From Sulfurovum sp. (GTDB lineage Bacteria > Campylobacterota > Campylobacteria > Campylobacterales > Sulfurovaceae), in assembly GCA_020721775.1 (NCBI GenBank), contig DYLZ01000005.1:1-41134 (forward strand): 41,134 nucleotides of DNA, written 5' to 3'. The notes below the pieces were generated by a model. The model was not told the origin of the DNA, made no database searches, and saw only the letters and a list, made by a program, of their open reading frames with translations. The position numbers and the translations under genes are program-made. This document shows positions 2,169-21,382 of the stretch, in pieces; the first letter of the stretch is position 1; every line of letters begins with the position of its first letter.

Positions 2169-3653
2169 TTAAAATCCGCTTGCACTCATCATTGTATATA
2201 CAAATGTGAGTATTTTATCAAAGAAAAAGACAGAACCGACAGTAACAAATACTGCGATACCAACCACAACCATAAGTGGTTTAGATATATTGTAATAGAT
2301 AATATCTACGCTTTTTACAGGTTCTCTAAGGAACATATAAACAATAAGTTTTAAATAATAATAAGCAGCTATTGCGCTATTTAATCCCATGATAATAGCA
2401 AGTTTTATATATCCCGCATCAATAGCTGAACTCATTATATAGAGTTTTCCCCAAAATACTGAAAATGGGGGAACTCCCGCAAGAGAAAGCATAAATAGCG
2501 CCATTACAACAGCACCCATAGGAACTATCTTGATCATACCGGCAAATTTTTCATAAGGATGGTCAAATCTATCTGAAAATGCTTTTACTTTATGTCTGGA
2601 TATCCAAAGCATAGTAAATGCTCCAAGGTTGGTAAACATAAACAGAGCATAATAAACAAATATAGCAGTACTGGCTTTGGTTGTGCCTATAGCGATTGCC
2701 GCCATTACAAAACCTGCATGAGAGATAGATGAATAAGCAAGCATTCTTTTAACATCTTCTTGAACAAGAGCCATTATATTTGCAAGCGTCATTGTAACAA
2801 CAGATAAAATAAGTATTATTGTTTGGATACTATCTATTCCCAAATCAATATATATACTAAATATTCTCAAAGCTACTGCAAATGCAGCAACTTTAGGAAC
2901 TATGGACATATATCCTGCAAGTGGCGCTGAAGCTCCTTCATAAACATCCGGCGCCCATGTATGGAATGGGAAAAGAGATAACTTAAATGCAAATGCGACC
3001 AAAATAAGAACTGCGCCTCCTGTTATAAGAAGGGCATTTGAATTTTCTGTGCTCAAACTCAAAGCTTCAGATATTTGCCACAACTCAACACTTCCTGTTG
3101 TTGCATATATTGCCGCACTCCCCATAGCATAAAACCCTGCCGCAACAGCTCCCATTGTAAAGTATTTGATAGCCGCTTCAAATGAGTGATATCTGTTGTG
3201 CATAGCAATAAGTGCATAAAGAGCCAAAGACGATGTTTCAATGCCGACAAATATCAATATCAGGTTATCGGTAGTTACCATAAACTGCAATCCGGCAACC
3301 ATAAATACAAAAAGGGCAAAAAATTCCGGATAGGAGAATTCATGGAATCTTTTTGAAGTAAGTGCCAATGGGATAAAAAGCATAGATGCAATTAGTATCA
3401 ATATTTGAGAAACAATTGATAGTCCGTCAAACAACATCAGATCAAAAAAACCTCTGCCTTGCGCTGCTCCCAAAACAGAAAACAAATCAGCGCCAAATAT
3501 CATCAACGACAACATAACATATAGTGATTTATGTAAATTTGACTTGATAAGATCAATTATCAAAATACCAAGTCCGCCAAATATTGCTATAAGCATTGGC
3601 GCTAAAAGCGGCAGATTTAACTCTCCTAATGTAACTTGTATAGGCGTTACCAT
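2169..3653 (-). CDS. nuoN: NADH-quinone oxidoreductase-type complex I, subunit N
   Basis: NuoN is one of the three antiporter-like membrane subunits that pump protons in complex I. The 494-residue protein is hydrophobic throughout (about 14 membrane segments). It carries the family signature KLSLFPFHTWAPDVYEG in the middle, with its lysine and histidine in the proton channel, and MLAYSSISHAGFVMAA in the next half. It is the last gene of the operon. The nuoM stop and nuoN start overlap by one base (TAATG), so translation is coupled. A terminator hairpin follows. Confidence 0.96.
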   Translation of the reverse strand: MVTPIQVTLGELNLPLLAPMLIAIFGGLGILIIDLIKSNLHKSLYVMLSLMIFGADLFSVLGAAQGRGFFDLMLFDGLSIVSQILILIASMLFIPLALTSKRFHEFSYPEFFALFVFMVAGLQFMVTTDNLILIFVGIETSSLALYALIAMHNRYHSFEAAIKYFTMGAVAAGFYAMGSAAIYATTGSVELWQISEALSLSTENSNALLITGGAVLILVAFAFKLSLFPFHTWAPDVYEGASAPLAGYMSIVPKVAAFAVALRIFSIYIDLGIDSIQTIILILSVVTMTLANIMALVQEDVKRMLAYSSISHAGFVMAAIAIGTTKASTAIFVYYALFMFTNLGAFTMLWISRHKVKAFSDRFDHPYEKFAGMIKIVPMGAVVMALFMLSLAGVPPFSVFWGKLYIMSSAIDAGYIKLAIIMGLNSAIAAYYYLKLIVYMFLREPVKSVDIIYYNISKPLMVVVGIAVFVTVGSVFFFDKILTFVYTMMSASGF

Positions 3654-5176
3654 TATTTTTCCTCCTTAGAGTTTTTTGCTATTATTATTTCTTTTGCCTC
3701 AGGAGTTATAGCTTTTTGCTCCATAATAGATAGTGTGGTTTTAACGCTATTGTCAATAATGCTAAGCACCGGTTTTGGATAAATTCCCAACCAAATAACA
3801 ATAGCTACAAGCGGTATAAACGATACAAGCTCATTTGCATTTAAGTCTTTTAATTTTCTGTTTGCTTCATTTGTAATGGCCCCAAAAAAACTTCTTTTAA
3901 ATAGAGAGAGCATATAAACAGCTCCTACTATGATGGAAGTCCCAGCCAAAACAGTTAAAATCGGAGAAATTTTATAAAAACCTATAAGCACCAAAAACTC
4001 GCCTACAAACCCTATGGTAAGCGGCAAACCGACTGATGCCATCAGCATGATCCCAAAAATAAGAGCATACTTTGGCATAATAGAAGCAAGCCCGCCAAAC
4101 TCGCTCATATATTTTGTGTGCGTTCTATCGTAAATTACGCCTACAAGCATAAACAGAGCACCTGAAACTATACCGTGTGACAGCATTTGAAACACGGAAC
4201 CGCTTATGCCTTCACTATTCATAGCAAAAATTCCAAGCATAACGATACCCATATGTGAAACAGATGAGTATGCGATGACCTGCTTCATATCTTCTTGAGC
4301 ATATGCTACCATCGCAGTATAGACTATCATAATGATAGAAAGTATAGCGATAGGCGCTATCATCATTATAGAAGCATCCGGAAACATTGGAAGCGAAAAT
4401 CTAACAAATCCGTATGTACCCATTTTAAGAAGTACTGCCGCAAGTATCACAGAACCTATTGTTGGTGCTTGACCGTGAGCATAAGGCAGCCATGTATGAA
4501 AAGGGAACATAGGTACCTTAATAGCAAATCCTACAAAAAATGCCAAAAATAACCAGAATTGATATTTCATATCAAAGCCGAGCGCATACCAATCGGTTAT
4601 AGCAAAACTCCATACACCCGCAGCGCTATAGAAGCTGTATGCTACAAAAAGCATACCTACAAGCATTATAAGAGAGCCGACAAATGTATATAAGAAAAAC
4701 TTGATAGACGCATAAACTCTAAGCGGTCCGCCCCATGCACCAATGATATAGAGCATCGGAACAAGAGACAACTCCCAAAAGAAGTAAAACATGATAGCAT
4801 CGAGAGCCAAGAATACACCTACCATTGTCATTTCTAAGAACAAAAGCGTTATTACCATATTTTTTAAGTCTTCTTTTATGGTCATACTCATCATTCCGAT
4901 AAGTGTCATAAAAGTAGTCATTATAACTAAAAACAGGCTTATGCCATCAACTCCCAAATAATAACTGATCCCAAAGTCTTTAACGATGGGAAAATGTTCT
5001 ATAAATTGAAATGTAGGATTTAAGCTATCAAAGTTCATCCATAAAAATAGAGATAAAATAAACTCAACTGCGGCTATCGCAACACCATAAACCCTTGCGC
5101 TATTTTTGTCTATGACAAAACCGAGCAATCCGGCCAATGCCGGGAAAAATACTAATATAGTTAAAATATTACTCAT
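3653..5176 (-). CDS. nuoM: Complex I proton-pumping subunit M
   Basis: NuoM is the central antiporter-like subunit of the membrane arm. The 507-residue, roughly 14-helix protein has the conserved channel glutamate in FFWELSLVPMLYIIG (E135), and the lysine K220 before VPMFPFHTWLPYAHGQAPT, the hallmark of the family. VIAYSSVSHMGIVMLG follows. The start is set by an AGGAGAG site about 4 bases before the ATG. It follows nuoL by 9 bases and overlaps nuoN by one. Confidence 0.96.
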   Translation of the reverse strand: MSNILTILVFFPALAGLLGFVIDKNSARVYGVAIAAVEFILSLFLWMNFDSLNPTFQFIEHFPIVKDFGISYYLGVDGISLFLVIMTTFMTLIGMMSMTIKEDLKNMVITLLFLEMTMVGVFLALDAIMFYFFWELSLVPMLYIIGAWGGPLRVYASIKFFLYTFVGSLIMLVGMLFVAYSFYSAAGVWSFAITDWYALGFDMKYQFWLFLAFFVGFAIKVPMFPFHTWLPYAHGQAPTIGSVILAAVLLKMGTYGFVRFSLPMFPDASIMMIAPIAILSIIMIVYTAMVAYAQEDMKQVIAYSSVSHMGIVMLGIFAMNSEGISGSVFQMLSHGIVSGALFMLVGVIYDRTHTKYMSEFGGLASIMPKYALIFGIMLMASVGLPLTIGFVGEFLVLIGFYKISPILTVLAGTSIIVGAVYMLSLFKRSFFGAITNEANRKLKDLNANELVSFIPLVAIVIWLGIYPKPVLSIIDNSVKTTLSIMEQKAITPEAKEIIIAKNSKEEK

Positions 5177-5185
5177 CTACTCTCC

Positions 5186-7081
5186 TTAAGCTGCTATTAG
5201 TGATAATATTGACACCAATAGAAGCGCAATGGCGCCTATTGCCATCCAATTTAGATAATTAGAAAGGTTACCGCTTTGCATACCTCTGCTTTTGTCACCG
5301 CTTCTATATAGAAATTTTGCAATTGCGTCAACTGTAGCGTCAACAATTTTCATATCTACATTTTTCCACATCAATTTAGAAAGTTCGGCGTAAGGTTTAG
5401 ATATAACTGCTTCATATAAAACCGGTATATAGTATTGATTTGCCAATAGTTTATAAATAAATCCGTTTTCTGTTTTTTCGCTTCTAACTAATCGTTTATT
5501 GTATTTGATATAGGCAAGAAGAATTCCGCTTACTGCAACAGCTAATACTATAAGTCCCAAATACAATGCCAAATGGTGAGTATGCTCGCTCATTTGATAG
5601 TTAGGTAATAAATTTATTATAAAATCATTAAAACCGTCTTTGAAAAATCCTGCTATAACGGCCAAAATCGCAAGCGGCGACATAGCAACCAGAACATACT
5701 TATACATTTCATGAGGATGGATCCCAAATTCATGATATCTCTCATCGCCATGGAATGTCAAAAATACCTGACGGAAGCTATAGAATGCTGTCATACCTGC
5801 TGTTATGACAAGTGTTGCCCAGAGTATTAAAGAACCTTCATTGAATGCTGTCTCTATGATCGCATCTTTTGAAAAGAAACCTGCAAGAGGAGGTATGCCT
5901 GCAAGTGCGAGTGATGCTAACCCCATATAAAGATATGTTCCCCTCATTGCCTTTTTAAGTCCACCCATTTTGAAAATATCAAGCTCATCATGCATAGCAT
6001 GCATAACATTTCCTGCACCCAAAAATAAAAGAGCTTTAAAAAATGCGTGAGCGCCTAAGTGAAATAGAGCTATCCAATAAGCCCCAAGTCCTGCTGCTGC
6101 GAACATATACCCAAGTTGTGATAGAGTTGAAAAGGCAATAATTCTTTTTAGATCTCTATTGACAAGTGCCATTGATGCGGCAAAAAATGCCACAAAAGTT
6201 CCAAGTGCGGCTATAAAATAACTTACTTCAGGAGTTAGCGCAAAAATCGGATTTGCTCTGATCACCAAAAAAACGCCTGCTGTTACCATTGTTGCGGCAT
6301 GAATAAGTGCAGATACCGGAGTAGGACCCTCCATCGCATCTGTTAGCCATGTATGAAGCGGAAATTGCGCCGATTTTCCCATAGCGCCTATAAAAAGCGC
6401 CATTGCAGCTGTAGTAAGAACTGCTTGCGTCATATTTGGTATAGCGCTAAATACAACATCGTATTGTAAGCTGCCGACATTCCAATATATTATAAATAAA
6501 CCTACCAGCATACCAAGGTCTGCAATTCTGTTCATTATAAACGCTTCATTAGCTGCCCATGACGGTGAAATAGAAGGATTTATATCCCTTGTTACATCAG
6601 CTTTATGATACCAAAATCCAATAAGCAGCCACGAACATACACCAACGCCTTCCCATCCTATAAATAATCCGGCAAAGTTATCGCTCATAACAAGAATGAG
6701 CATTGAAAATACAAATGCCGAAAGGTATGAGAAAAATCTGTTGAAACTTTTGTCATGATCCATATAGCCTATTGAATATACATGTACAACGGTTGAAATA
6801 AGCGTTACAACAAACATCATTGTTACACTCACATGATCTACGATAAATCCAAATGAAATATTAAGATCTCCTGCTGCTATCCAATCCATAAGTTTAACAT
6901 GTATAGGTTCATTTGTAACAAGCAGATGATAACCTAATATTGCCGATGCGGCAAAAGAGATGAACAACAAAAACGACGAGACCACTCCTACAAATTGTTT
7001 TTTTGGAGTCATAGCAAAACTACCGGCAAACAGCGAGCTCAAAAGAGGCGCAAAAAGCGCAATATAAACTAAACTTTCCAT
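5186..7081 (-). CDS. nuoL: Complex I proton-pumping subunit L
   Basis: NuoL is the distal antiporter-like subunit, with the long lateral helix that runs along the membrane arm. The 631-residue protein has the channel glutamate E144 in FIGWEGVGVCSWLLIGFW and the lysine K236 in GKSAQFPLHTWLTDAMEGPT. The C-terminal stretch after residue 540 is consistent with the lateral helix and terminal anchor. An AAAGGATAAGC site precedes the ATG. All pump residues checked are present, so the membrane arm looks competent for ion translocation. Confidence 0.96.
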   Translation of the reverse strand: MESLVYIALFAPLLSSLFAGSFAMTPKKQFVGVVSSFLLFISFAASAILGYHLLVTNEPIHVKLMDWIAAGDLNISFGFIVDHVSVTMMFVVTLISTVVHVYSIGYMDHDKSFNRFFSYLSAFVFSMLILVMSDNFAGLFIGWEGVGVCSWLLIGFWYHKADVTRDINPSISPSWAANEAFIMNRIADLGMLVGLFIIYWNVGSLQYDVVFSAIPNMTQAVLTTAAMALFIGAMGKSAQFPLHTWLTDAMEGPTPVSALIHAATMVTAGVFLVIRANPIFALTPEVSYFIAALGTFVAFFAASMALVNRDLKRIIAFSTLSQLGYMFAAAGLGAYWIALFHLGAHAFFKALLFLGAGNVMHAMHDELDIFKMGGLKKAMRGTYLYMGLASLALAGIPPLAGFFSKDAIIETAFNEGSLILWATLVITAGMTAFYSFRQVFLTFHGDERYHEFGIHPHEMYKYVLVAMSPLAILAVIAGFFKDGFNDFIINLLPNYQMSEHTHHLALYLGLIVLAVAVSGILLAYIKYNKRLVRSEKTENGFIYKLLANQYYIPVLYEAVISKPYAELSKLMWKNVDMKIVDATVDAIAKFLYRSGDKSRGMQSGNLSNYLNWMAIGAIALLLVSILSLIAA

Positions 7082-7083: not shown

Positions 7084-7386
7084 TTATCCTTTCATAGACG
7101 CAAGATCGTCAAGATCAAGAGTATTTTCTTTTTTATAAACAAGTATCAAAAGCCCAAGACCGATAGCAACTTCACTCGCAGCGATTGCAACTATAAAGAA
7201 TGCAAACATTTGACCGGTAAGGTCATGATAAAAACTTGAAATAGCAGCAAAAGCAACATTTGCAGCATTTAACATTATCTCTGTTGAGAAAAATAACATA
7301 AGCAGATTTCTTCTTCTAAGAACTCCTATGAGACCTATTGCAAAAAGAATACCTGATAAAATTAGATAATGATTCAGCCCGATCAT
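7084..7386 (-). CDS. nuoK: Complex I membrane subunit K
   Basis: NuoK is a three-helix subunit next to NuoN that contributes two membrane glutamates to the proton path. The 100-residue protein shows both: one in FSTEIMLNAANVAF and one in AIAASEVAIGLGL. Its start overlaps the nuoJ stop (ATGA). Length and motifs are normal. Confidence 0.95.
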   Translation of the reverse strand: MIGLNHYLILSGILFAIGLIGVLRRRNLLMLFFSTEIMLNAANVAFAAISSFYHDLTGQMFAFFIVAIAASEVAIGLGLLILVYKKENTLDLDDLASMKG

Positions 7387-7937
7387 TCTTCATCCTTTAA
7401 TTGTAATACCTCATCTTTTATGTCAGTTAAGCTGGTATCCATTTTTTTACCTGCTAAGACAATACCGCCTATCATTGCTATAAGCAACATAACTGCAGCA
7501 ACCTCAAATGGAACTAGATACTTTGTGAAAAGAGCCATACCTACAGCTTCAGGATTTGTCATTTTATCGCTCATAGGCAAAGATGCATAGATAGCATCAG
7601 GATTAATGGCTCCCAAAAACATCAATGTCATCAAAAGTGCCGCCGTTACACCGACTATCAAAACCCAACCGGTTGAAGTTGTCTTCTCTTTTAAATTTTT
7701 TGTTACATTGAAAAACATCATACCGAAAGCATAAAGCGCCATAACTGCGCCGACATATACAATCAACTGCACAACGCCGAGAAAATCGGCTCCAACTAAA
7801 AAGAAAAATCCGGCAATTACTACCATGCCGCTAGCAAGTGATGTCATAGCATATAAAACATTTTTACTAAACACGGCAACCAAAAACAGTCCTATCGTTA
7901 GTACTGAAAAAAAATAAAATGCAATTTGTTCAAACAT
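7383..7937 (-). CDS. nuoJ: Complex I membrane subunit J
   Basis: NuoJ is a five-helix subunit linking NuoH to the antiporter-like subunits. The 184-residue protein has five hydrophobic stretches and the conserved GVVQLIVYVGAVMALYAFGMM segment in the third. The C-terminus is short and charged (KDEVLQLKDEE). It lies 9 bases after nuoI and overlaps nuoK by 4 bases. Confidence 0.94.
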   Translation of the reverse strand: MFEQIAFYFFSVLTIGLFLVAVFSKNVLYAMTSLASGMVVIAGFFFLVGADFLGVVQLIVYVGAVMALYAFGMMFFNVTKNLKEKTTSTGWVLIVGVTAALLMTLMFLGAINPDAIYASLPMSDKMTNPEAVGMALFTKYLVPFEVAAVMLLIAMIGGIVLAGKKMDTSLTDIKDEVLQLKDEE

Positions 7938-7946: not shown

Positions 7947-8582
7947 CTAGTATGCAAGTGGCGTTTTTTTGATATTTTCATCTGCATTTGGACTAATGCT
8001 TCCAAATCCTGCAAACTCTTTTTGCTCTTTTAGTTTGTCGATCGGCGTTAACATATCTTCAAACAGTGAGAATCCTGCTCTTTGTTCAGAGGCATTTTCA
8101 TATCTTCCACCATGAACTATTGCAAGCTCAGGGCATACTTCAGCGCAATATCCGCAAAATATACAACGACCAAAATTGATAGTATATTGGCTTACTTCTT
8201 TTCTCTGATTTTCATCATATCTTGTTTCCATTGCTATACAGTTGGAAATGCATATCTTTTCGCAAAGCCCGCAACCTATGCATCTATAATGTCCGCTCTC
8301 AAGCAGCCTTAGCATTTCATGTATAGCTCTATATCTTGGCGAGATCGGTAATTTTTCAAATGGATACTTTGTTGTATGCATTTTGCCCTTAAATAGCGCA
8401 TTTATCATCTCTCTAAATGTTACGCCTAAACCTTTAAGCAACTCTAAACTTAAACTTCTTTTTACGACCTGAATAAACGCCGGCATACCGAATTTCGGAG
8501 TTTTTCCCAGATCAAGCATTACATAGTTTTGCTTCTCTTTTTGAACAGTATGCGTCTCTTTATGTTCTTCAATATGTGCCAT
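7947..8582 (-). CDS. nuoI: Complex I ferredoxin-like subunit I (clusters N6a and N6b)
   Basis: NuoI carries two [4Fe-4S] clusters that relay electrons from NuoG to NuoB. The 211-residue protein has two full motifs: C101-C104-C107-C111 (CIGCGLCEKIC) and C140-C143-C146-C150 (CIFCGYCAEVCP). A strong GAGGAGG ribosome site precedes the ATG at 8582. An N-terminal extension of about 80 residues holds the amphipathic helix region. All eight cysteines are present, so both clusters should form. Confidence 0.96.
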   Translation of the reverse strand: MAHIEEHKETHTVQKEKQNYVMLDLGKTPKFGMPAFIQVVKRSLSLELLKGLGVTFREMINALFKGKMHTTKYPFEKLPISPRYRAIHEMLRLLESGHYRCIGCGLCEKICISNCIAMETRYDENQRKEVSQYTINFGRCIFCGYCAEVCPELAIVHGGRYENASEQRAGFSLFEDMLTPIDKLKEQKEFAGFGSISPNADENIKKTPLAY

Positions 8583-8594
8583 ATTTTCCTCCTC

Positions 8595-9605
8595 TTACAG
8601 CATTACTACGATGCCGGTAATCAATATATTTATCACGGCTAAAGGCATCAAGACTTTCCAGCATAACCACATCATTTGATCGGGTCTAACATGCGGCCAA
8701 GCGGCTCTTGCCCACAACATCAAAAAGAAAAAGAAAACAACTTTTAGTACAAATAAAAACCAACCTGATATAAATGCCAAATCATTATAACCTCCGCAAA
8801 ATACAACTGCCGCTATGATAGAGATCGTGATCATATTTGCATATTCACCTATAAAGAACATACCCCATCTAAGGCCGCTATACTCAGTTAGATAACCTGA
8901 AACTATTTCAGCTTCATGTTCTAAAAGGTCAAACGGTGTTCTGTTTGTTTCTGCAAAACCGGCTATCAAAAACAACACAAATGCGATTGGCTGCTGCCAA
9001 ATTAGCCATGAAGTGATTCCGCCTGCCTGCGCGTCATTAAAATCGATCATAGAAAGGGAACCTACTAGCATAATAGGAGCCAAAACAGAAAGTCCTGTTA
9101 CAACTTCATAACTCAAAAATTGAACAGCTGTTCTAGCAGAACCTATAATACCCCACTTGTTTGATTGCGCCATACCTGCTAGCAGCGGACCATAAAGACC
9201 TGCCGCCATTGTTCCAAGTATAAACAATATACCTATATTTATATCTGCCACAGTAGATGGCACTATAGCACCTCCGATAACCGGAAGAGATTTGGGTATT
9301 GTAAATGTTGGAAACAGCGGTAATGCCGCCATAGCAATAAATGCTGTAGCCGCCGTTATTACAGGTGCTAATGAAAATATAAATTTATTTGCATTTTGAG
9401 GGATGATATCCTCTTTTGTAAACAATTTTATACCGTCTGCTGCAATTTGAAGCAATCCAAATGGTCCTACATGCATTGGTCCGAGACGACGCTGCATAAA
9501 TGCAAGTACTTTTCTCTCAATGTATGTTCCAAATCCTGCAATTGCAGATACAATTGCCAGAATTATCAATATTTTTATTATTGTTCCTATCGTTAATGCG
9601 TCCAT
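8595..9605 (-). CDS. nuoH: Complex I membrane subunit H (quinone site)
   Basis: NuoH forms, with NuoB and NuoD, the quinone-binding chamber at the junction of the two arms. The 336-residue, 8-helix protein has the family signature ERKVLAFMQRRLGPMHVGP near residue 30 and the charged loop ETNRTPFDLLEHEAEIVSG with its conserved acidic residues. The canonical PEAEAELVAG is slightly changed here to LEHEAEIVSG. The start is one base after the stop of the second nuoG copy. Confidence 0.96.
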   Translation of the reverse strand: MDALTIGTIIKILIILAIVSAIAGFGTYIERKVLAFMQRRLGPMHVGPFGLLQIAADGIKLFTKEDIIPQNANKFIFSLAPVITAATAFIAMAALPLFPTFTIPKSLPVIGGAIVPSTVADINIGILFILGTMAAGLYGPLLAGMAQSNKWGIIGSARTAVQFLSYEVVTGLSVLAPIMLVGSLSMIDFNDAQAGGITSWLIWQQPIAFVLFLIAGFAETNRTPFDLLEHEAEIVSGYLTEYSGLRWGMFFIGEYANMITISIIAAVVFCGGYNDLAFISGWFLFVLKVVFFFFLMLWARAAWPHVRPDQMMWLCWKVLMPLAVINILITGIVVML

Positions 9606-9606
9606 A

Positions 9607-12081
9607 TTATGCCTTTCTTATGGATATAGATTTAAATCTATTTTGTCCAAAAAATTTATAAATCTCAAAAGAGTGTTTAAAATCAGGAAGTTTTACTATA
9701 TTCCCGCTCATTCTGTTATCTATCTTGACATCCAAAACAAATTCTGTGCCTTCCAGATCTATTACAACCCTATCGCCAAGCTCATCTGCTTTTTCTTCGC
9801 TTACATAAAGAGCAAACGGCTCAAATATCTGATGAGCAGTTGCGGTAAACTCATTAAATTGTCTTTGAGGATTGCATCTATAAGCGATTAGTTCTGCGCT
9901 CATCTCATTTAAGCTTATCTCTTTAGGTAAAGATTCTACAATCTTAACTCTTTGAGATTTCAAACCATATCCTCTATTTTCGCTTCCGTCGTTATTGTAA
10001 CCGTTCGGTAAGCTATCAAATTCTCGCGCTTCAAAACCTTTTTTGACAGGAAGCTCTTTTGTCCAGTCGATCGTCAATCTTTTGCCTATGCCTAATTCAT
10101 TTAGAATATCATTCAATGTATATCCATTATAGCTAAGCGCAGCATTTGTAGGTACTACGCGTTTGTGCATATTTGTTAATGTTCCTTCCTGTTGGTTCAT
10201 TGCCGGCATATCAAGATCGCCGTCACCTAAAGCGCTCAATCTAAAATCTCCTACTTCGTTGTAACCAACTATATATCCGCTGCATTCATCATCAAGATCG
10301 CATATCAAAGATACTCCGAGTGAATTTGTTTTTGGAGGAATTATAGCGACATTAAATGGTGTTGCGCTTTCGATCAATGCCACAAGGATTGCAAGATTTT
10401 TTGATCGTGGATGAAAATAGAGATCTTCACCTACAACCAATGAAAAATTCTCTTTTTTTGCCAAGAATTTCTCTACGGTATCGGCAAAATCATTAGGGGC
10501 GCCAAACATTTCAAGAAGTTTGCTTGTGTTTACCTCTATCTCTTTGTTAACTTTTTTAGGAACTTTTTTTGTAACTTCTTTGCTTTCACCTGTTGCTTCA
10601 TCTATTACTGTTTCTATTATATCTTCCATGATAGTTTCAGTTATAGTTTTTTTGGTTACTGTTGAAAGTGATGCTAAATAATCTTTTACTTCTGCAGGTA
10701 ATTTTTCTTTATCGGCAAATTTATCAAGTATCCAATAAAGTACGGCTTCTTCGCTATTTATCTTATTTGCTATGCAAGCAACATTTTTTCCAAGATTTTC
10801 TATCACTTTATCGCCGATCGGATGAAAATATAATCCTGCTCCTTTATTTAACTTTTGAATATTATTAAACAGATATCTAACATTTGGATTATCATGTCTA
10901 ATAGCTGAGCCTACTGAAATAATAAAATCACTCTCCTGCATCATTGTTCTTATATTGCCGTCCCAAAGCGTAGCACCTTTTGCATTTGAAAAATATGTCA
11001 TAAAATCTTTAAACGCTTTTGCATCACTGTTGAGCAGCTTAAGACCAAATTTTTCTTTTAGCGTTTGGAGCATAAGAGCTTCTTCGTTTGTGATAATAGA
11101 GTTAAATCTGACAGCATCGGCTTTTTTTATAGCAGCAACCGCTTTTTTAAGCGCATTTGCATCTTTTGATGCAGTTCTATTTTCAAAATCATATCCAAAT
11201 CGTCCGGCTCCGCATAAAGATACATAGTTCCACTCATTTGTTACGCGATATATCTTTTCATCCCTATTTGCAATACCTGTCGGTTTTGTTTCATAATAGA
11301 TCTGACATCCGCTGCTGCAATGCGCGCAAGTTGCAGGAATCTTTGAAAGCTCCCAAGAATTTGTGGTATACATAAAATCTCTGCTAACTAGAGCTCCGAC
11401 AGGACAAACAGCGATACACTCTCCGCAATCGCTGCAATTTGTTTGGTTTGTTTCATTACTTGGCACTATGACAGATTTTTGCAACTTGTTCCACATAGCA
11501 TAAGCATCTTTAGGCATAGTATCTTTTAGCTCTTTGTCCAAACCTTTGCCACCTCTAGGACCGGTTGTCAAAGCGCTGTCACCGATCATATCTTTACATA
11601 CAGTAATACATCTCTCGCACACTATACAAAGAGCTGGATCATAGTGAAGAACACTGCTCCAATTAGAGCTTTCTCTTTTTACATCGGCTATTTTATACGG
11701 CTGTTCATCAACTCCGATCTCCAAAGTATAATTTTGAAGTTCACACTCTCCGCTCTTATCGCAAACACCGCATTGAAGAGGGTGATTTACATCGTAAACT
11801 TGCATAATAGCACGACGCTCTTCAAGTATCTCTTCATTGCTTACTACAACATTCATGCCGTCCTTTGCCTTGGCATTACAAGCATACACTCTTTTACCAT
11901 CGGCTTCAACAAGACATAAACGACAAGCCAGTGTCGGCGAACATCTGGTAAGATAGCATATTGCTGGTATAAATATACCGTTTGCTCTTGCAATATTGAG
12001 TATATATTCACCCTCTTTTGCAACGCATCTCTTGCCGTCAATTGTTAAAGATATAAGTCCGTTATTTTCGATTTCTTCCAT
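9607..12081 (-). CDS. nuoG: Complex I NuoG paralogue 2, with an extra [4Fe-4S] site
   Basis: This NuoG-type electron-relay subunit has 824 residues. Visible sites: [2Fe-2S] N1b at C42, C53, C56, C68; His-Cys3 cluster N5 at H100, C104, C107, C113; and N7 at C252, C255, C259, C290. The ferredoxin-like part has two complete motifs, C152-C155-C158-C162 and C216-C219-C222-C226, enough for two [4Fe-4S] clusters where canonical NuoG binds only N4. Residues about 473-517 are a Lys/Glu/Thr-rich insertion absent from the neighbouring paralogue. The degenerate molybdopterin-like C-terminal half shares long near-identical blocks with that copy (for example LGDGDLDMPAMNQQEGTLTN), showing they arose by tandem duplication. 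Its start overlaps the upstream stop (TAATG). Confidence 0.92.
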   Translation of the reverse strand: MEEIENNGLISLTIDGKRCVAKEGEYILNIARANGIFIPAICYLTRCSPTLACRLCLVEADGKRVYACNAKAKDGMNVVVSNEEILEERRAIMQVYDVNHPLQCGVCDKSGECELQNYTLEIGVDEQPYKIADVKRESSNWSSVLHYDPALCIVCERCITVCKDMIGDSALTTGPRGGKGLDKELKDTMPKDAYAMWNKLQKSVIVPSNETNQTNCSDCGECIAVCPVGALVSRDFMYTTNSWELSKIPATCAHCSSGCQIYYETKPTGIANRDEKIYRVTNEWNYVSLCGAGRFGYDFENRTASKDANALKKAVAAIKKADAVRFNSIITNEEALMLQTLKEKFGLKLLNSDAKAFKDFMTYFSNAKGATLWDGNIRTMMQESDFIISVGSAIRHDNPNVRYLFNNIQKLNKGAGLYFHPIGDKVIENLGKNVACIANKINSEEAVLYWILDKFADKEKLPAEVKDYLASLSTVTKKTITETIMEDIIETVIDEATGESKEVTKKVPKKVNKEIEVNTSKLLEMFGAPNDFADTVEKFLAKKENFSLVVGEDLYFHPRSKNLAILVALIESATPFNVAIIPPKTNSLGVSLICDLDDECSGYIVGYNEVGDFRLSALGDGDLDMPAMNQQEGTLTNMHKRVVPTNAALSYNGYTLNDILNELGIGKRLTIDWTKELPVKKGFEAREFDSLPNGYNNDGSENRGYGLKSQRVKIVESLPKEISLNEMSAELIAYRCNPQRQFNEFTATAHQIFEPFALYVSEEKADELGDRVVIDLEGTEFVLDVKIDNRMSGNIVKLPDFKHSFEIYKFFGQNRFKSISIRKA

Positions 12082-14324
12082 TACTGCTCCCTATTTAGAC
12101 GACTAAATCTGTATGAATTATTTAAACTAGCGTTCAAACCCATATCAAATATCGGATTTAGCGCTATTGTGCCTTTCATACTTTCATCGATCTTAAATAC
12201 TCTTTTGTATTTGGTTCCGTTGGCACTAAATGTTATCTCATCGCCATCATTTAGTTTAACGATACCGGCAAACTGAGGTGAACCTTTTAAATAAGTTTCA
12301 TCACTTTTAAATGCCTTTGTAACATTTGTAAATATATTCATATTTATATTTTCATTACAATTATAAACTATCGCTCCGTCAAATGTCGGCAACTCTTCTA
12401 TATCATCAAAGTCTTCTGCTGCTTTCACACTTTTTGAAGTCAGTAAATATCCTCTATGCTCGATCCCGCTATTATCAAAGTATGACGGCAGATTATCAAA
12501 ATTCTCCGGTTTAAACCCGGCTTTTTCAGGCAAATGAGTAGTGTAGTCTATGGTATATTCGGCTTTTAAACCAAGTTCATTTGCTATATCATTTAAAACA
12601 TATCCATTGTAACTAAGCGCTGCATTAGTAGGAACAACTCGTTTATCTATATTTGTCAATGTTCCTTCTTGCTGATTAAGCGCAGGCATATCCATATCTC
12701 CGTCTCCTAAACTGCTAAGCTCAAAATCACCTTTTGAATTATACCCTACCGTATATCCCTCTGCTTTCTCATCAAGAGAGCATATCAACGATACTCCTAA
12801 GGCATTTGTAGCAGGAGGAACGATTACGAAACTAAAATCACTATATTTATCTATGGCTCCTAACAATTTGGCTATCTCTTTTGCTCTAGGATGGTTATAT
12901 AGATCACTGCCGACAACAAAAGTTAGCTTTTCTTTCTTATCAATAGACTTCAAAAGAGCCATAAGCTCTTCTTCACCAACACTGCTCTCTGCGCTAATAT
13001 TGCCTATATCAAGGTTATCCAAAAAGCTTTTTAACTCCGGTGATATCTCGCGGCTGCTTAAAAATGTATTTGCAAGCAATGCTGCAACACCCTCTTCGCT
13101 TCCGACTTCATATTTGATAAATTGGGTTACGATATTACTGATATTGCTATCTTCCATAGGGTGCAGATATGCAACTCTTGCTCTATTTCTTTTACTTGCC
13201 ATTGTTATGTGGTATTTAACCATAGGATTGTCATCATTTATTCTACTGCCAAATACTATCACAGCGCTTGACTCTTTTATGGAATTTAAATTTCCGCTAT
13301 AAAGTGTCTCACCGGTGATACTTCCGTATGCTTTTAGGAATTGTTGATAACCGTAAGCTTCATCACAAACAAGTTTATATTTGTATTTTTCTTTAAGTTT
13401 TTGCAATATCAAAGCCTCTTCATTTGTTATTATGGCAGAAAAACTAATAGTATTGGCTCTTTTAAATGCGCTTATTGCTTCTTTGAATATCTCCGGATCT
13501 TTTACGGCATTTCTGTTTTCAAAATCAAATCCAAATCTGCCCGCTCCACAAAGTGAACTAAATTCAAAGTCATTAGTAACTCTGTATATTTTGTCATTTT
13601 TAACTTCATAATTAAGAGAACATGCACTGCTGCAATGTGCGCAACTTGCCGGAATACGCTTCAGCTCCCATGCATTTGAACTGTATTTAAAATCGCTACT
13701 TACAAGCGCACCTACAGGACAAACGGCAGCACTTTCTCCCAAAGATGGACAGGTGGAATTTTTAACATTTACTATAGTTGATCTATATCCGCCTACGCTT
13801 ATCTGCAAAGCTTCATTTCCTGTTATTTCATTTGATACCCTTACACACTTTTCACACATTATGCAAAGTGCAGGATCATATGAAACAAATCCCCAATTCT
13901 CAACTTTTTTATGAACCTCTCTTGCTGTAAAGTTTTGTTGAGATATGCCAAATTCCAATGTTTTATTTTGAAGCTCACACTCTCCGCTCTTATCGCAAAC
14001 ACCGCACTCTAATGGATGATTTACATTGTAAAGCTTCATAATGTTTTGTCTTTGGAGATAAAGATCTTTTGAAGTTGTTCTGACAACAGAACCATCAACA
14101 GCTTTTTCTTGACATGAAAGGATCATGCCTTCAACGCCCTCTACTTCCACGACACACATACGGCAGCTTGCGATCGGCTCAACTTTACTTAGATAACACA
14201 TTGTAGGAATATATATGCCGTTTGCTCTTGCAATTTTTAGTATTGTATCGCCATATTTTCCCTTGCACTCTTTACCATCGATCGTAATAGTTACGAGTTT
14301 TTTTTCTTCTCTTTGTGCACTCAT
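12081..14324 (-). CDS. nuoG: Complex I NuoG paralogue 1, canonical cluster set
   Basis: This 747-residue NuoG-type protein has the canonical bacterial cluster set: N1b at C43, C54, C57, C71; N5 at H103, C107, C110, C116; N4 at C154, C157, C160 and C202; N7 at C228, C231, C235, C259. At the four positions that would complete a second ferredoxin-type cluster it has S164, C192, L195 and S198, so that site cannot form. The C-terminal half is the molybdopterin-oxidoreductase-like fold without cofactor residues, as is normal for NuoG. It starts one base after the flavoprotein gene and overlaps paralogue 2. It may sit between the flavoprotein and paralogue 2, or the two may be alternative subunits; sequence alone does not decide. 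Confidence 0.92.
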   Translation of the reverse strand: MSAQREEKKLVTITIDGKECKGKYGDTILKIARANGIYIPTMCYLSKVEPIASCRMCVVEVEGVEGMILSCQEKAVDGSVVRTTSKDLYLQRQNIMKLYNVNHPLECGVCDKSGECELQNKTLEFGISQQNFTAREVHKKVENWGFVSYDPALCIMCEKCVRVSNEITGNEALQISVGGYRSTIVNVKNSTCPSLGESAAVCPVGALVSSDFKYSSNAWELKRIPASCAHCSSACSLNYEVKNDKIYRVTNDFEFSSLCGAGRFGFDFENRNAVKDPEIFKEAISAFKRANTISFSAIITNEEALILQKLKEKYKYKLVCDEAYGYQQFLKAYGSITGETLYSGNLNSIKESSAVIVFGSRINDDNPMVKYHITMASKRNRARVAYLHPMEDSNISNIVTQFIKYEVGSEEGVAALLANTFLSSREISPELKSFLDNLDIGNISAESSVGEEELMALLKSIDKKEKLTFVVGSDLYNHPRAKEIAKLLGAIDKYSDFSFVIVPPATNALGVSLICSLDEKAEGYTVGYNSKGDFELSSLGDGDMDMPALNQQEGTLTNIDKRVVPTNAALSYNGYVLNDIANELGLKAEYTIDYTTHLPEKAGFKPENFDNLPSYFDNSGIEHRGYLLTSKSVKAAEDFDDIEELPTFDGAIVYNCNENINMNIFTNVTKAFKSDETYLKGSPQFAGIVKLNDGDEITFSANGTKYKRVFKIDESMKGTIALNPIFDMGLNASLNNSYRFSRLNREQ

Positions 14325-14325: not shown

Positions 14326-16338
14326 CTACACCGCCACCATTGAAATATAATAACATCTCATACATCTTTGCGCTTCATCTACGGCTTCTTCGCCCGTAAA
14401 GCCCATATTTACCTCTTTATAGTTATCTTTTCTCTCGTTCACTTCAAGTTTTTGACTAACAACTCTTGGAAGTCCCGGCATCCAGCCTATGATCTTCTCA
14501 TTTTTATTATAAACTTTTAGTTTTTTAAGATGATCTTCCATTATCTCATCATCAGTTAAACTAATTTTACCATCATATATGTATCTTGAGATAACCGATG
14601 CTGCTCTTTTTGCCTGACCAACAGCATTTACTATGGTCATTGGTCCATATTCACAATCTCCGGCAGCAAAAAGTCCAGGACGGCTTGTCATGTAATCTTT
14701 GCCGTTTGTGAGCAAGGTTCCCCATGATGTAAGAGCAAGCTCCCATTCGGCAGGCAACAATTGAAGATCGGCAGATTGAGAAACTGCAGGGATCAAATAA
14801 TCGCACTCTATTTCAAAATCACCATCTTCTCTTTTGACAAGCTGAGCTCTTCCACCGTTTGGATCAGGCACAAGTTCAAATTGATTAACTTTTAATTTTG
14901 TTATTTTCTCTCCATCATCAACAATCTCTTCAACAGCAGAGTAAAAGATAAACTCAACACCCTCTTCAAGCGCCTCATGATACTCTTCGTAAGTAGTATT
15001 TTTGATGATAGTCGCTTCATCTCTACGATAAAGCATAATAACTTTTTTAGCGCCCTCTCTAATAGCACATCTGACAACATCCATTGATGTAAATCCGCCA
15101 CCTACACATACAACAACTTTGTCTTTAAGTTCATTACTTGCAGGGCTTCCTATGCGGTATTTATTCCAAAGATTTACTTTGTCAAGCATCGCTATAGCGC
15201 CCCAATATCCGCCGATATCTGTCTTTTCATTAGCGGCACCTATTTTTTTAGAGAGTCTTGTTCCAAAGGCAAGAAGCGTAGCATCATATTCGCTCTCTAT
15301 CTCTTTGAGCCGCGCTGCATCAACACGATGATTCGTGATAACATTTACCGTCGGCATAGAGGTTACAAGCTCTATATCTCTATTGTACTTCTCTATAGGC
15401 ATACGATACTGCGGAACGCCCACTGCAACTTCTCCGCCAAGAACAGGCAGCTCTTCAAAAATATCCACCTGTATCCCTTCAAGAGCCAAATAATAAGCCG
15501 CTGTAAGTCCTGCGGGACCTGCTCCTATGATGGCAACTTTCTTACCGTCATTTCTCGGCTCTTTTGGCTCAAAAGGGTGTTGCCATGGAAGCCCATGATC
15601 TGTTTCATAGTCAGCTCCGAGTCTTTTAAGCTCCATTATAGATATCGGGCTGTCCAAATTTGCTCTTCTACATGCATCCTCGCATGGATGAGGACAAACT
15701 CTACCGCAAGTATGCGCTAAAGGCATAGTTTGTCTTGTCGCACTCAAAGATTTGGTAAAGTGCATATCCCTAACGCCTTCTATGTAAGCGGGTATATCGA
15801 CATGAGCCGGACACATATCTATGCATGGCGCAGTTACTTTTGCTATATAACTGATCTCTTCATTATAATAATGATGTGATGCTTTTTGATTATCTATCAA
15901 ATCATTAAAATCGGCCGCAAAATGTTCCATTAGATCCAAAATAGGTTTTGGTACAGTTTTTCCGATCTCGCATTTTGATGTCATCATCATAGTGCCGCAA
16001 ACCTCTTTTAGATGAGCGATATCATCATGACTGCCCTCACCTCTTGCTATTTTGTCAAGTAGATCATAAAGAATTCGTCCGCCCCATCTTCCAGGAGCGC
16101 ATCTGCCGCAAGCTTCTGAATAGATTTGATATTGCGCCGCATATTCCATTGCAAGTCTTACAACATCGACATCTTTATCAAATAACACTACACCGTCCCA
16201 GCCTATAAAAGCTTTTGAAGATCTATCTGTTGTATAATTTTCCGGCAAAGAAAATGCGCTTGTTTGAAAATCATCTTCTTTTTTATTTCTATTATCTACG
16301 AGTTCGCCCTGCCAAGTAGAGAAAAATACATTAGCCAT
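14326..16338 (-). CDS. Hybrid NuoF Fe-S segment / GltD-type NAD(P)H flavoprotein in complex I operon
   Basis: This gene stands where nuoF should be but encodes a 670-residue hybrid. Residues 74-140 match the C-terminal Fe-S domain of NuoF (SEACGRCAPGRWGG, then C114 and C123), but the FMN/NADH-binding domain is missing. Residues 172-223 are a GltD/DPD-type N-terminal Fe-S domain (C172, C176, C211, C215, C219, C223). GAGPAG at 272-277 binds FAD. GGGFTSMD at 413-420, followed by YRRD at 437-440, is the second dinucleotide site; the Arg pair is typical of NADPH-using GltD and NfnB enzymes. RPGLFAAGDC is the C-terminal FAD motif, and C659/C662 end the protein. Architecture resembles SfrB of Geobacter SfrAB. 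Inferred role: NADPH (possibly ferredoxin) oxidation feeding the NuoG-like subunits. Confidence 0.88.
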   Translation of the reverse strand: MANVFFSTWQGELVDNRNKKEDDFQTSAFSLPENYTTDRSSKAFIGWDGVVLFDKDVDVVRLAMEYAAQYQIYSEACGRCAPGRWGGRILYDLLDKIARGEGSHDDIAHLKEVCGTMMMTSKCEIGKTVPKPILDLMEHFAADFNDLIDNQKASHHYYNEEISYIAKVTAPCIDMCPAHVDIPAYIEGVRDMHFTKSLSATRQTMPLAHTCGRVCPHPCEDACRRANLDSPISIMELKRLGADYETDHGLPWQHPFEPKEPRNDGKKVAIIGAGPAGLTAAYYLALEGIQVDIFEELPVLGGEVAVGVPQYRMPIEKYNRDIELVTSMPTVNVITNHRVDAARLKEIESEYDATLLAFGTRLSKKIGAANEKTDIGGYWGAIAMLDKVNLWNKYRIGSPASNELKDKVVVCVGGGFTSMDVVRCAIREGAKKVIMLYRRDEATIIKNTTYEEYHEALEEGVEFIFYSAVEEIVDDGEKITKLKVNQFELVPDPNGGRAQLVKREDGDFEIECDYLIPAVSQSADLQLLPAEWELALTSWGTLLTNGKDYMTSRPGLFAAGDCEYGPMTIVNAVGQAKRAASVISRYIYDGKISLTDDEIMEDHLKKLKVYNKNEKIIGWMPGLPRVVSQKLEVNERKDNYKEVNMGFTGEEAVDEAQRCMRCYYISMVAV

Positions 16339-16340: not shown

Positions 16341-16571
16341 CTAGCCTTTTTTCCTAACAACTATAGTCCAATCCACCTCATTGAATTTAAGTGAATTTAA
16401 AAGCTCATGCCCTGCTTCTTTGACAACATCGGCGCTCTTTTGAATATGGCTGAAATCACCTATTTCAAAAAGAAAAATTCCGACTTCATTGTTTTTTAGA
16501 TCATTTTTGATGAGAGTTAGCATTCTGTCATAAAAATCATCTTTTAGATGTCTTAAATCATATCTTTTCAT
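16341..16571 (-). CDS. NuoE-position small protein, HP1264-like, no cysteines
   Basis: A 76-residue protein occupies the nuoE position. The chosen ATG at 16571 has a GGGAGAGAG site just upstream; an earlier in-frame start at 16592 would overlap nuoD and give 83 residues. Canonical NuoE is about 160 residues with four cysteines for the N1a [2Fe-2S] cluster; this one has no cysteine at all, so it cannot bind that cluster. Size and position match the short NuoE-like protein of Helicobacter pylori (HP1264) and Campylobacter. It may be a structural adaptor for the flavoprotein encoded 2 bases downstream. Confidence 0.8.
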   Translation of the reverse strand: MKRYDLRHLKDDFYDRMLTLIKNDLKNNEVGIFLFEIGDFSHIQKSADVVKEAGHELLNSLKFNEVDWTIVVRKKG

Positions 16572-16581
16572 TCTCTCTCCC

Positions 16582-17811
16582 TTACCGATCAACTTCGCCG
16601 AAAACTATATTTGTGCTACCTATAATAGTAACCACATCAGCTATATAAGCGCCTACCAGCATTTCTTGAAGAAGTCCTGTATGGAAAAAACTTGGCGCTC
16701 TGCATTTTAATCTATAAGCATACGGCTCGCCTTCGCTTTTGATATAAAAACCAAGTTCGCCTTTTGGAGATTCAGTAGGAGCATAAACTTCTCCCTTTGG
16801 CGGCCTCATACCTTGTGTTACAAGAACGAAATGCTGCATTAAAGCATAGTTCTGCGTCATTATCTCTTCTTTAGGAGCAGAGATGTATTGCGGTGCATGC
16901 GCCATTAGCTGCGGGGCTGTCTTATCATACATAGGAACAAGCTGTCTTAGTATCTTGATAGATTCTTTCATCTCTTCCATATATAGTCTATATCTACCAT
17001 AACTATCACATCTATCACTTACCGGTATATCAAACTCAAGCTTGCTATAAAGTTCATAAGGCTCTTCTTTTCTTATATCATATTGCACACCCGAACCTCT
17101 TAACATAGGACCTGAACAGCCCCAGCTTTGCGCTTCTTCAGCTGAGATAACGCCGACATCCTCAAGTCTCATTTTCCAAATTCTATTTTCATTCAACAGT
17201 TTCTCGTAAGTGTTAGCAAGCTCATACTCAACAGTATCACACCATTTAAGAAGCTCTTGAGTCCAACCTTTAGGTAGATCAAGAGGAACTCCACCGATTC
17301 TAACGGCAGAGTGTGTAAGCCTTGCCCCACAATACTCTTCCATTAGATCCATACCGAATTCTCTTTCTCTAAATGCATATAAAAATATTGACATTGCTCC
17401 CACATCAAGCGCATGGGTTGCTAAGAAAAATAGGTGAGATATGATGCGGTTAACTTCAAGAAGCATTGTTCTGATAACTTGTGCGCGCTCCGGTATTTCA
17501 ATTCCTAAAAGCTGCTCAACCGCATGAGCATAAGCATAATTGTTTGAAGTAGACGCTATGTAGTCAAGTCTGTCTGTTGTAGGCAAAAACTCGTTATATG
17601 TCATATTTTCTGCCATCTTTTCTATACCGCGGTGAAGATAACCGATATCAGGATATGCTTTTACAACTTTTTCGCCGTCAAGCTCCAAAACAAGTCTAAG
17701 CTGTCCATGAGCCGACGGATGCTGAGGACCTAAGTTGATAACCATCGTATTATCATTTCTCTCAAAATTAAGGTTTTCAAAAAATGGGGTCAATTTATTG
17801 GTTTGTTGCAT
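16582..17811 (-). CDS. nuoD: Complex I 49-kDa-type subunit D
   Basis: NuoD forms the quinone pocket with NuoB and is homologous to the large subunit of NiFe hydrogenases. The 409-residue protein has the N-terminal [20 protein letters not shown] motif, whose histidine (in HPSAHG) contacts the quinone head, followed by [16 protein letters not shown] and LPTTDRLDY. The C-terminus ends [12 protein letters not shown], close to the canonical DPVFGEVDR. NuoC and NuoD are separate genes here, unlike in E. coli. Confidence 0.96.
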
Positions 17812-17824: not shown

Positions 17825-18607
17825 CTACTTTCTTTTATCTAACTGTTTTTGTGATTTTGTATAGTCAACCAGCGGCGCTTTACTATATTCAATATCATTT
17901 TCTTTTTCGCCATCACTTATATCTGCGCCAAACGGCACTTCATAACCGACTCTGGAAAATCTTTTTGTATCATATCTGTCTATTTTTGCAGGATCTCTAT
18001 TTTCGGGTCCGATCACATCTCTATATTCTTTACCGAATATCTTATCTACTTCATACCAGCTGGCAGCTTCATCGCCTTGAAGTGGATAAGTTTTTAGGAG
18101 TGGATGACCAACCCAATCGTCAGGCATAAGTATTCTCTTCAAATATGGATGATTATTCACCACGATACCAAACATATCATACATTTCTCTCTCGGAAAAA
18201 TTTGCTGATTTGTATAGACAAACAACACTTTCTATCGCTTCATCTTTTTTGATTCTTGTAACTACTCTAACTCTTTTGGCTTCGCTCATATTTAGCATTT
18301 GATAAAAAACTTCAAACTCACCGTCGCGTGCTAAATAATCAACGGCGCTAAGTTCAGAACAAACATTATATCCGCATTTATCTTTTAGTATCTCTAAAAC
18401 TTTTATATTGTCAGTTGATTTGATATGAATTATAAGCTGACCTAATTCTACATAAGATTCGCGCACAAATTTTTTAAGGCTGTTTACAACATCAGCAAAA
18501 TGGCTACCGCTCTGGACTTCGCTTCTTGGTACTCTTGGAACGACATAAAATCTATCTGTATAGTAAGATTTTTTTTGAACATTATCTTTTGGCGTGTACT
18601 TTCTCAT
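17825..18607 (-). CDS. nuoC: Complex I 30-kDa-type subunit C
   Basis: NuoC is a peripheral-arm scaffold subunit. The 260-residue protein contains the family core: LSAVDYLARDGEFEVFYQML in the middle and SANFSEREMYDMFGIVVNNH with RILMPDDWVGHPLLKTYPL further on. An N-terminal extension of about 60 residues and a charged C-terminal tail make it longer than typical NuoC (about 200 residues), similar to Helicobacter NuoC. It overlaps nuoB by one base (TAATG) and precedes nuoD by 13. Confidence 0.95.
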   Translation of the reverse strand: MRKYTPKDNVQKKSYYTDRFYVVPRVPRSEVQSGSHFADVVNSLKKFVRESYVELGQLIIHIKSTDNIKVLEILKDKCGYNVCSELSAVDYLARDGEFEVFYQMLNMSEAKRVRVVTRIKKDEAIESVVCLYKSANFSEREMYDMFGIVVNNHPYLKRILMPDDWVGHPLLKTYPLQGDEAASWYEVDKIFGKEYRDVIGPENRDPAKIDRYDTKRFSRVGYEVPFGADISDGEKENDIEYSKAPLVDYTKSQKQLDKRK

Positions 18608-19125
18608 TATATCAACCTTAGATTTTGTTTTCTGTTTTTGTTCATATTTGCAGATTCTCTTCTAATTTTCTTTTGAAGCATCATAAGAGCATATTGAAGA
18701 GTTTCCGGTCTTGGAGCGCATCCGGGCAGATAAATATCAACAGGAACGATTCTGTCAACTCCTTGAACGGTAGCGTAAGTATTGAACATACCGCCTGTAT
18801 TTGCACAGCTTCCCATAGATATAACCCACTTCGGCTCTGCCATTTGATCATAAAGTCTTCTTGTGAACTCAGCATGCTTTTTTGATAAAGTTCCTGCTAG
18901 TATCATAACATCGGCTTGTCTTGGGGATGCCCTAAAAATAGTACCAAATCTATCAAAGTCAAATCTACTTCCCCCGCTTGCCATCATTTCGATAGCGCAA
19001 CAGGCAAGCCCATAAGTTAAAGGCCAAAGTGAATTTGATCTTCCCCAGTTCACAAGTTTATCTACAGTAGTGAGTACTATAGGCAACCCTGCAGATGAGG
19101 CGTAATTTACTTGATGCTGTGCCAT
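18607..19125 (-). CDS. nuoB: Complex I subunit B (cluster N2)
   Basis: NuoB holds the terminal [4Fe-4S] cluster N2 that reduces quinone. The 172-residue protein has the tandem cysteines C42-C43 ([10 protein letters not shown]), C107 ([10 protein letters not shown]) and C136 (LPGCAPRPE), the full N2 ligand set. I chose ATG 19125 over the upstream 19146 start: it begins with [11 protein letters not shown], overlaps nuoA by 19 bases instead of 40, and has an AAAAGGAGC ribosome site at the right distance. Confidence 0.96.
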
Positions 19126-19496
19126 TCTAATGCTCCTTTTTTCCATGCATATACAAATCCTATTGCAAGTAATAATATAAATAGTACCATCTCAACAAAA
19201 CCAAACCAACCAAGAGCCTTAAAATCAATAGCCCATGGAAACATAAAAATTATCTCTACATCAAAAAGTATAAAAAGCAATGCGATGAGATAAAACTGAA
19301 CTGAAATCGTATTTGGCTGTTTTGTAACTTCAGGCCCGCACTCATATATACTCATTTTAAGTTTTTCCGTATCGAGTTTTGCCAACTTTCTACTGATAAA
19401 TCTTTGCAATCTAAGTGTTGCGCTAAATGCAACAAATGTCAAAACAAATAGGACAAACACACCAAAGTATGGATGTTCACTCACAATATGTGTCAT
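19107..19496 (-). CDS. nuoA: Complex I membrane subunit A
   Basis: NuoA is a three-helix subunit beside the quinone channel and is the first gene of the operon. The 129-residue protein has the loop signature YECGPEV, then [21 protein letters not shown] with the conserved acidic residues of helix 2. AAGGGG lies 5 bases before the ATG. A CATAAT hexamer on the minus strand at 19531-19536 is a plausible -10 box, which would give a leader of roughly 28 bases. Confidence 0.95.
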
Positions 19497-19778: not shown

Positions 19779-20129
19779 ATGCAAACTATAATCAAACCCG
19801 CAGAGGCAGAAGAATTTATGCCGCAAGGAGCTACGGTTCCTTTTTTTAAATATCAAATGGGAGAAGATCAGATCGTTGAATTTGATACTTCCAAATGCGG
19901 TCCGCCTGAACCGATGGTCAATGCAATGATCGGACTTAAAATGGTTGATGAACACACCAAACTTTTAATGATCAATCATAAAAAACCGATGGGCTTGCTT
20001 GATAAAATAGGAGAAAACTATAATATCGAATCTGCAAAGATGGATGACGGAAGGATACAGCTGCTTTTTTCCTATAGTCATGGAAAAAGCGAAAATGCCG
20101 ATCTTAGTAATAGCACTTGCCATGGATAA
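19779..20129 (+). CDS. DUF2249-domain protein
   Basis: A 116-residue soluble protein with a DUF2249 core (VEFDTSKCGPPEPMVNAM, resembling the family's LDVRGLPPPEPM), then a stretch ending in an aromatic beta-strand (IQLLFSYS). DUF2249 has a TusA/SirA-like fold; no reaction is established for it. In many denitrifiers such genes lie beside nnrS, hemerythrin and DUF59 genes. C39 is in the core motif and another cysteine sits near the C-terminus (STCHG). AGGAGA precedes the ATG. It is the first gene behind the FNR/Dnr-type box. Confidence 0.75.
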   Translation: MQTIIKPAEAEEFMPQGATVPFFKYQMGEDQIVEFDTSKCGPPEPMVNAMIGLKMVDEHTKLLMINHKKPMGLLDKIGENYNIESAKMDDGRIQLLFSYSHGKSENADLSNSTCHG

Positions 20130-20136
20130 TCATTAG

Positions 20137-21372: not shown

Positions 21373-21382
21373 AGGAAAGAAT

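Follow-up and report, generated by a model that had tools for sequence, protein, structure and literature searches.

A complex I operon of a Sulfurovum genome with a predicted NADPH-type GltD/StnC flavoprotein in place of the NADH head, and its apparent relation to the NuoXY complexes of Helicobacter and Campylobacter

In the open-access literature (including PMC6682613 and PMC4178425), the complex I of Campylobacterota (epsilon-Nuo) is described only as the NuoXY type, driven by flavodoxin or ferredoxin, or as the canonical type with NuoEF. In C. jejuni and H. pylori, NuoF is reported to be replaced by NuoY (PMC6682613; PMC4178425), and HP1264, the NuoX of H. pylori, is an FMN-binding protein without conserved Cys whose structure was obtained by NMR (PDB 2LXR). 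GltD-type flavoproteins are associated with NuoG-like partners in other systems. In SfrAB, an NADPH oxidoreductase of Geobacter, the GltD-resembling SfrB is reported to be paired with the NuoG-like SfrA, and an SfrB-like partner of [FeFe] hydrogenase has been reported in Pelobacter. In StnABC/NfnABC (PDB 8OH5, 9BOV), a GltD-type module feeds a NuoG domain, and StnC was found experimentally to be non-bifurcating (PMC10482914).

The locus described here lies in a stretch of 41,134 nucleotides (the window) of a Sulfurovum sp. assembly (Sulfurovaceae) with 96% completeness. It contains a nuo operon in the order nuoA-B-C-D-[16341-16592]-hybrid-nuoG1-nuoG2-H-I-J-K-L-M-N, with the following genes:

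19107..19496, minus strand: NuoA; D79/E81 kept
18607..19146, minus strand: NuoB (NCBIfam)
17825..18607, minus strand: NuoC (NCBIfam)
16582..17811, minus strand: NuoD, TIGR01962 (NCBIfam)
16341..16592, minus strand: NuoX, PF16514 at 1.1e-40 (Pfam); orthologue of H. pylori HP1264
14326..16338, minus strand: input subunit (the hybrid) of 670 aa, in which a GltD-type Fe-S/FAD/NAD(P)H module follows the C-terminal Fe-S domain of NuoF (NCBIfam, Pfam)
12081..14324, minus strand: NuoG1, 747 aa; ligands of N1b, N5, N4 and N7 all present
9607..12081, minus strand: NuoG2, 824 aa; ligands of N1b, N5, the eight-Cys dicluster and N7 all present
8595..9605, minus strand: NuoH; acidic residues kept
7947..8582, minus strand: NuoI
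7383..7937, minus strand: NuoJ, by position and operon homology over 44 operons; Y59 equivalent kept
7084..7386, minus strand: NuoK, by operon homology over 44 operons; E36/E72 kept
5186..7081, minus strand: NuoL (NCBIfam); equivalents of E144, K229 and K399 kept
3653..5176, minus strand: NuoM; equivalents of E144, K234 and E407 kept
2169..3653, minus strand: NuoN; equivalents of K217, K247 and K395 kept

The respiratory core (NuoB, C, D, H, and I) and the pump subunits NuoA, J, K, L, M, and N are all present, and the GltD-type gene thus lies, as the initial annotation had held, inside a full complex I operon. The pump residues which that annotation considered intact in NuoL and NuoM are indeed identical to those of E. 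coli, and the agreement extends to NuoA, H, J, K, and N, where every pump or quinone-arm residue compared has the E. coli identity. The operon therefore shares core subunits, membrane subunits, and conserved residues with canonical E. coli complex I, but differs from it by the absence of NuoE and of the FMN/NADH domain and by the presence of two NuoGs and NuoX. With the NuoXY type of C. jejuni, H. pylori, and Sulfurospirillum it has in common the order A-B-C-D-X-...-G-H-I-J-K-L-M-N, a NuoX orthologue placed directly after nuoD, and the lack of canonical NuoEF in the operon. However, the NuoXY type carries a short NuoY and a single NuoG where the Sulfurovum operon carries the hybrid and a full-length NuoG1, and the expected electron input would be flavodoxin in the former and NADPH in the latter. 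A divergent cluster adjoins the operon (19779-21703, plus strand), encoding a DUF2249-like protein, a FeS_assembly_P (MIP18-type) protein, and a third ORF of 411 aa, which is multi-helix and membrane-like and has no Pfam match.

The hybrid subunit is built from the following parts, all on the minus strand:

15904..16122, minus strand: NADH_4Fe-4S (PF10589), aa 73-145 (Pfam 8.5e-20)
15595..15834, minus strand: Fer4_20, aa 169-248 (Pfam 1.8e-23)
14611..15543, minus strand: Pyr_redox_2, FAD and NAD(P)H binding, aa 266-576 (Pfam 2.1e-26)
15019-15030, minus strand: YRRD, aa 437-440, within Pyr_redox_2
14353..14367, minus strand: RCMRC, aa 658-662 (C659, C662), the N-terminal CxxC of GltD/NfnB permuted to the C-terminus

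The 670-aa protein has no Pfam match to Complex1_51K (PF01512), and its residues 34-146 align solely to the final ~110 positions of NuoF (NCBIfam). Both resources agree with the first description of the gene at the nuoF position as one that lacks the FMN/NADH domain and joins a NuoF-like Fe-S segment to a GltD module. The resemblance to SfrB proposed at the same time also stood, as judged by comparison with the published description of SfrAB: the NuoF Fe-S segment is N-terminal to the GltD module and NuoG1 is encoded next to it. SfrAB-type proteins either form soluble enzymes of two subunits or act as partners of hydrogenases, whereas the hybrid is encoded within a proton-pumping complex I operon. 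The same NuoF-C and GltD layout is found in a Collinsella relative beside an [FeFe] hydrogenase. An ordinary glutamate synthase GltD was considered and rejected, as the genome encodes a separate GltD (C62, 460 aa, 30% identity). Chimera or misassembly was likewise rejected, with more than 100 syntenic relatives; neither chance nor chimeric assembly accounts for the gene, because orthologues of 56-92% identity occur across the phylum with the gene order kept.

In the NuoF-like part, C77, C80, and C123 are invariant in all 112 distinct relatives, and in the same 112 the third NuoF-type Cys ligand is replaced by Gly (G83 in CGRCAPG). E. coli NuoF has SCGWCTPC at the aligned site, the other NuoF-type proteins of the sampled genomes also have Cys there, and the Collinsella protein retains all NuoF Cys (CTPC), in contrast to the Campylobacterota hybrids. 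The pattern is therefore C-x2-C-x2-G ... C and not the CxxCxxC ... C of the four-Cys NuoF cluster N3, and with one Cys fewer a normal [4Fe-4S] cluster may not form at this site. In the GltD part, C172, C176, C211, C215, C219, and C223 are invariant among the 112 relatives. Residues 634-662 correspond in the alignments to NfnB 14-42 and to the region near position 565 of StnC, and the invariant K238 aligns without gaps to K170 of StnC, which is the Lys that ligates the FAD-proximal cluster, at a position where NfnB has Glu. The hybrid thus shares with StnABC/NfnABC the GltD-type NADPH module, the Lys ligand, and the CxxC permuted to the C-terminus. The layout is not that of StnC, whose GltD module lies within NuoG and supplies a bifurcating HydBC-like module. 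In the Sulfurovum protein the GltD module is joined to NuoF-C in a subunit of its own, and each NuoG has its own gene.

These ligands bear on a bifurcating or confurcating complex I, in which the FAD of the hybrid would split NADPH electrons between a ferredoxin and a quinone branch in the manner of NfnB. The NfnB fold of the hybrid (E about 1e-65 to NfnB chains) would suit such a mechanism, as would the additional Fe-S capacity of two NuoGs and the second flavin that NuoX may hold. Nevertheless, the proximal-cluster residue is Lys, as in the non-bifurcating StnC, where NfnB would have Glu, and the operon encodes no NfnA-like or HydBC-like bifurcating partner. An NfnB-type bifurcating flavin is disfavoured by the replacement of Glu by Lys, and bifurcation is the least probable of the alternatives considered here.

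The second dinucleotide site had been noted to end in YRRD, and the motif was located at aa 437-440; the same motif is found in the NADPH-dependent GltD of E. coli. Y437, R438, and R439 are present in 112 of 112 relatives and D440 in 99% of them. A putative preference for NADPH is supported by this identity and by the best structural relatives, which are NADPH enzymes. NADH-type GOGATs with GltD-like modules exist, and the genome has no other NADH-linked complex I head; both points would fit an NADH:quinone complex I in which the flavoprotein was swapped. Since all 112 sequences have R438 and R439 and both the motif and the structural homologues are of the NADPH kind, use of NADH seems very improbable. 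K238, the permuted CxxC, and YRRD together make the GltD part read as a StnC-like, NADPH-type, linear donor. An AlphaFold model of the hybrid alone, with 21 close relatives aligned, was of low confidence, with a mean pLDDT of 62.8 and with aa 170-255 and 596-670 below 50.

A canonical nuoE/nuoF pair elsewhere in the genome would have undermined the hybrid as the input subunit, and none was found: a profile search of the assembly, 96% complete, gave no PF01512 match anywhere and no PF01257 match above the cut-off, so that the NuoE and FMN/NADH NuoF of an NADH-type complex I are missing from both operon and genome. The lone PF01257-like match, below threshold, is at 38356-38466 in a 126-aa ferredoxin-like ORF (window 38263-38643, minus strand). 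By family profile searches, the genome also has no long-chain flavodoxin and no PntB, and it encodes ATP-citrate lyase, which indicates a reverse TCA cycle.

It could be argued that reduced ferredoxin or flavodoxin drives the complex and that the attached GltD domain acts as a ferredoxin/flavodoxin:NADP+ reductase in a regulatory or accessory role. Indeed, the operon retains the NuoX of the flavodoxin-type epsilon-Nuo, and the open-access literature assigns flavodoxin or ferredoxin to epsilon-Nuo as a whole. However, C. jejuni, the case in which flavodoxin is experimentally supported, has the NuoXY type without a hybrid; the genome studied here has no long-chain flavodoxin; and the hybrid has fully conserved NADP and FAD sites and carries the NuoF docking domain. 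This alternative is unlikely, and weaker than NADPH as the driver.

The distribution of the hybrid was studied in 150 Campylobacterota genomes, evenly drawn. A search for nuo operons with the same domain order, suggested at the outset, found it widespread in the phylum (33/150), and it occurs in 23 of the 24 nearest genomes of the same family. NuoX is present in 119 of the 150 genomes, including all 33 with the hybrid. PF01512 is found in 18, only 4 of which have the hybrid, and 29 of the 33 hybrid genomes have no PF01512 at all. When 44 operons were laid out, the hybrid, NuoX, and two full NuoGs occurred together in all operons with the region complete on the contig (23/23), NuoG being duplicated in each. 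The operons without the hybrid contain a gene of 231-339 aa and one full NuoG in 20 of 21 cases, the remaining one (L200) having one full NuoG only; a second full NuoG is found in none of the 21. NuoG1 of the window lacks the second cluster of the eight-Cys ferredoxin domain, a cluster kept in 9 of 16 NuoG1, whereas NuoG2 retains all eight Cys. The N7-type site of NuoG2 is absent in some lineages and present in the window.

Of the 86 NuoXY genomes, 79 encode long-chain flavodoxin, against 13 of the 33 genomes with the hybrid (Fisher p 8e-9, relatedness uncontrolled, a few genomes being assigned by subtraction from lists). The association is confounded by phylogeny, and flavodoxin is present in some hybrid genomes. 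A divergent hybrid was also observed at L155:5518-7692, in a genus of an otherwise NuoXY family; it has a long linker insertion and a very long branch, and its NuoG1 and NuoG2 are likewise fast-evolving.

The short gene of the non-hybrid operons occupies the position of NuoY (loci L156-L159, L162-L164, L171-L173, and L190-L199). A profile of these 20 NuoY sequences aligned to NuoG1 with an hhalign E of 5e-55 and to NuoG2 with 1e-22, as compared to 0.8 for a shuffled-column control, and the NuoY of every single family matched NuoG1 with E below 1e-36. A relationship of NuoY to NuoF or to the hybrid was rejected in favour of NuoG1 (hhalign against the hybrid, E 0.26). What NuoY retains of NuoG1 is approximately residues 340-505 and 635-750. 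It lacks all four domains that bind clusters as well as the middle of the protein, and not a single Cys is conserved. Judged by this profile homology, the NuoY found in complex I of the Helicobacter/Campylobacter type is a NuoG1 that has been truncated and has lost its clusters. The result covers H. pylori-type genomes, because the NuoX of L194 is identical to the HP1264 chain at 75 of 75 residues. The C-terminal half of NuoG1 is kept as NuoY with all clusters gone, which suggests that this half may have a structural role as the site where the electron-input partner docks.

Phylogenetic trees place NuoY on the side of NuoG1, and the NuoY of family f8 joins its own family's NuoG1 (SH-aLRT 91), away from the other NuoY; f8 is probably Arcobacteraceae, the family codes of the sampled genomes being related to taxa by inference. 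The hybrid and NuoXY types are interleaved in the core-gene and NuoG2 trees, and at least 4 to 5 changes are required. It is easier to derive a truncated protein without clusters from a full one than the reverse, and loss is therefore favoured as the direction. NuoXY complexes thus appear to be remnants of a hybrid-type complex I, and we infer that they evolved from the hybrid form by loss. One locus, L092 (~8001-12300), labelled as a Sulfurospirillum MAG, has a Sulfurovaceae/Sulfurovum-like hybrid and NuoG1 together with a Sulfurospirillum-like NuoG2; it is a mosaic due either to sideways movement of a cassette or to a chimeric contig. If cassettes are exchanged in this way, loss is not the sole direction.

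Domains, cluster ligands, synteny, the missing NuoEF, and the homology of NuoY to NuoG1, all established at the sequence level, enter into the interpretation considered probable here: a complete proton-pumping complex I in which the NADH head (NuoE and the FMN part of NuoF) would be replaced by a GltD/StnC-type NADPH flavoprotein with the NuoF docking Fe-S domain retained, working linearly and reversibly and giving rise to NuoXY by loss. NADPH, or NADP+ in the reverse direction, would dock at the YRRD Rossmann site and exchange hydride with FAD. Single electrons would then pass from FAD to the proximal [4Fe-4S] cluster (three Cys and Lys, non-bifurcating as in StnC), to the distal [4Fe-4S] cluster, and through the altered NuoF-type cluster (three Cys and Gly) to NuoG1 and NuoG2. 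From NuoG2 they may proceed via NuoI and NuoB to menaquinone, a flow that would be coupled to proton pumping by the intact NuoL/M/N/H. Reverse running is probably the main mode in this presumed autotroph, with proton-motive force and quinol yielding NADPH; such a flow to NADP+ would be most useful because the organism, as read from its genes, runs the reverse TCA cycle without PntB. In Helicobacter and Campylobacter, the hybrid would have been lost and NuoG1 cut down to NuoY, which has no clusters, so that a flavodoxin-driven complex was left.

A broader proposal, for and against which the balance is about even, is that Campylobacterota possess a distinct and vertically old class of NADP(H):menaquinone pump, in which the head is of GltD/StnC type, the NuoF-type cluster has three Cys, and two NuoGs act in series. 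The flavodoxin complex I of Helicobacter and Campylobacter would have arisen from this class by repeated reduction, NuoY being what is left of the outer NuoG once its clusters had gone. A pump with direct NADP(H) exchange would, if true, give chemolithoautotrophs of the reverse TCA cycle a one-step, proton-motive-force-driven source of NADPH and add a new type of electron input to one of the best-studied enzymes. The complex I head would behave as an exchangeable cassette, and a testable origin is offered for the puzzling NuoX and NuoY of human pathogens, in which complex I is not NADH-dependent. No description of a GltD-type complex I in Sulfurimonas or Sulfurovum was found in the open-access literature searched, and neither a GltD-type head nor a NuoG origin of NuoY is mentioned in the open-access literature on epsilon-Nuo. 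The 2008 genome paper of Sulfurimonas denitrificans reportedly discusses Nuo. The modules are known singly; neither the way they are combined nor a link to NuoXY is documented in the open-access literature searched, and no claim of priority is made.

Beyond the nuo operon, the window contains a PTS sugar transporter EIICB gene adjoining an HPr-EI fusion (21750-24927), in a small genome of a presumed autotroph. Sugar uptake seems unusual for the group to which the organism belongs.
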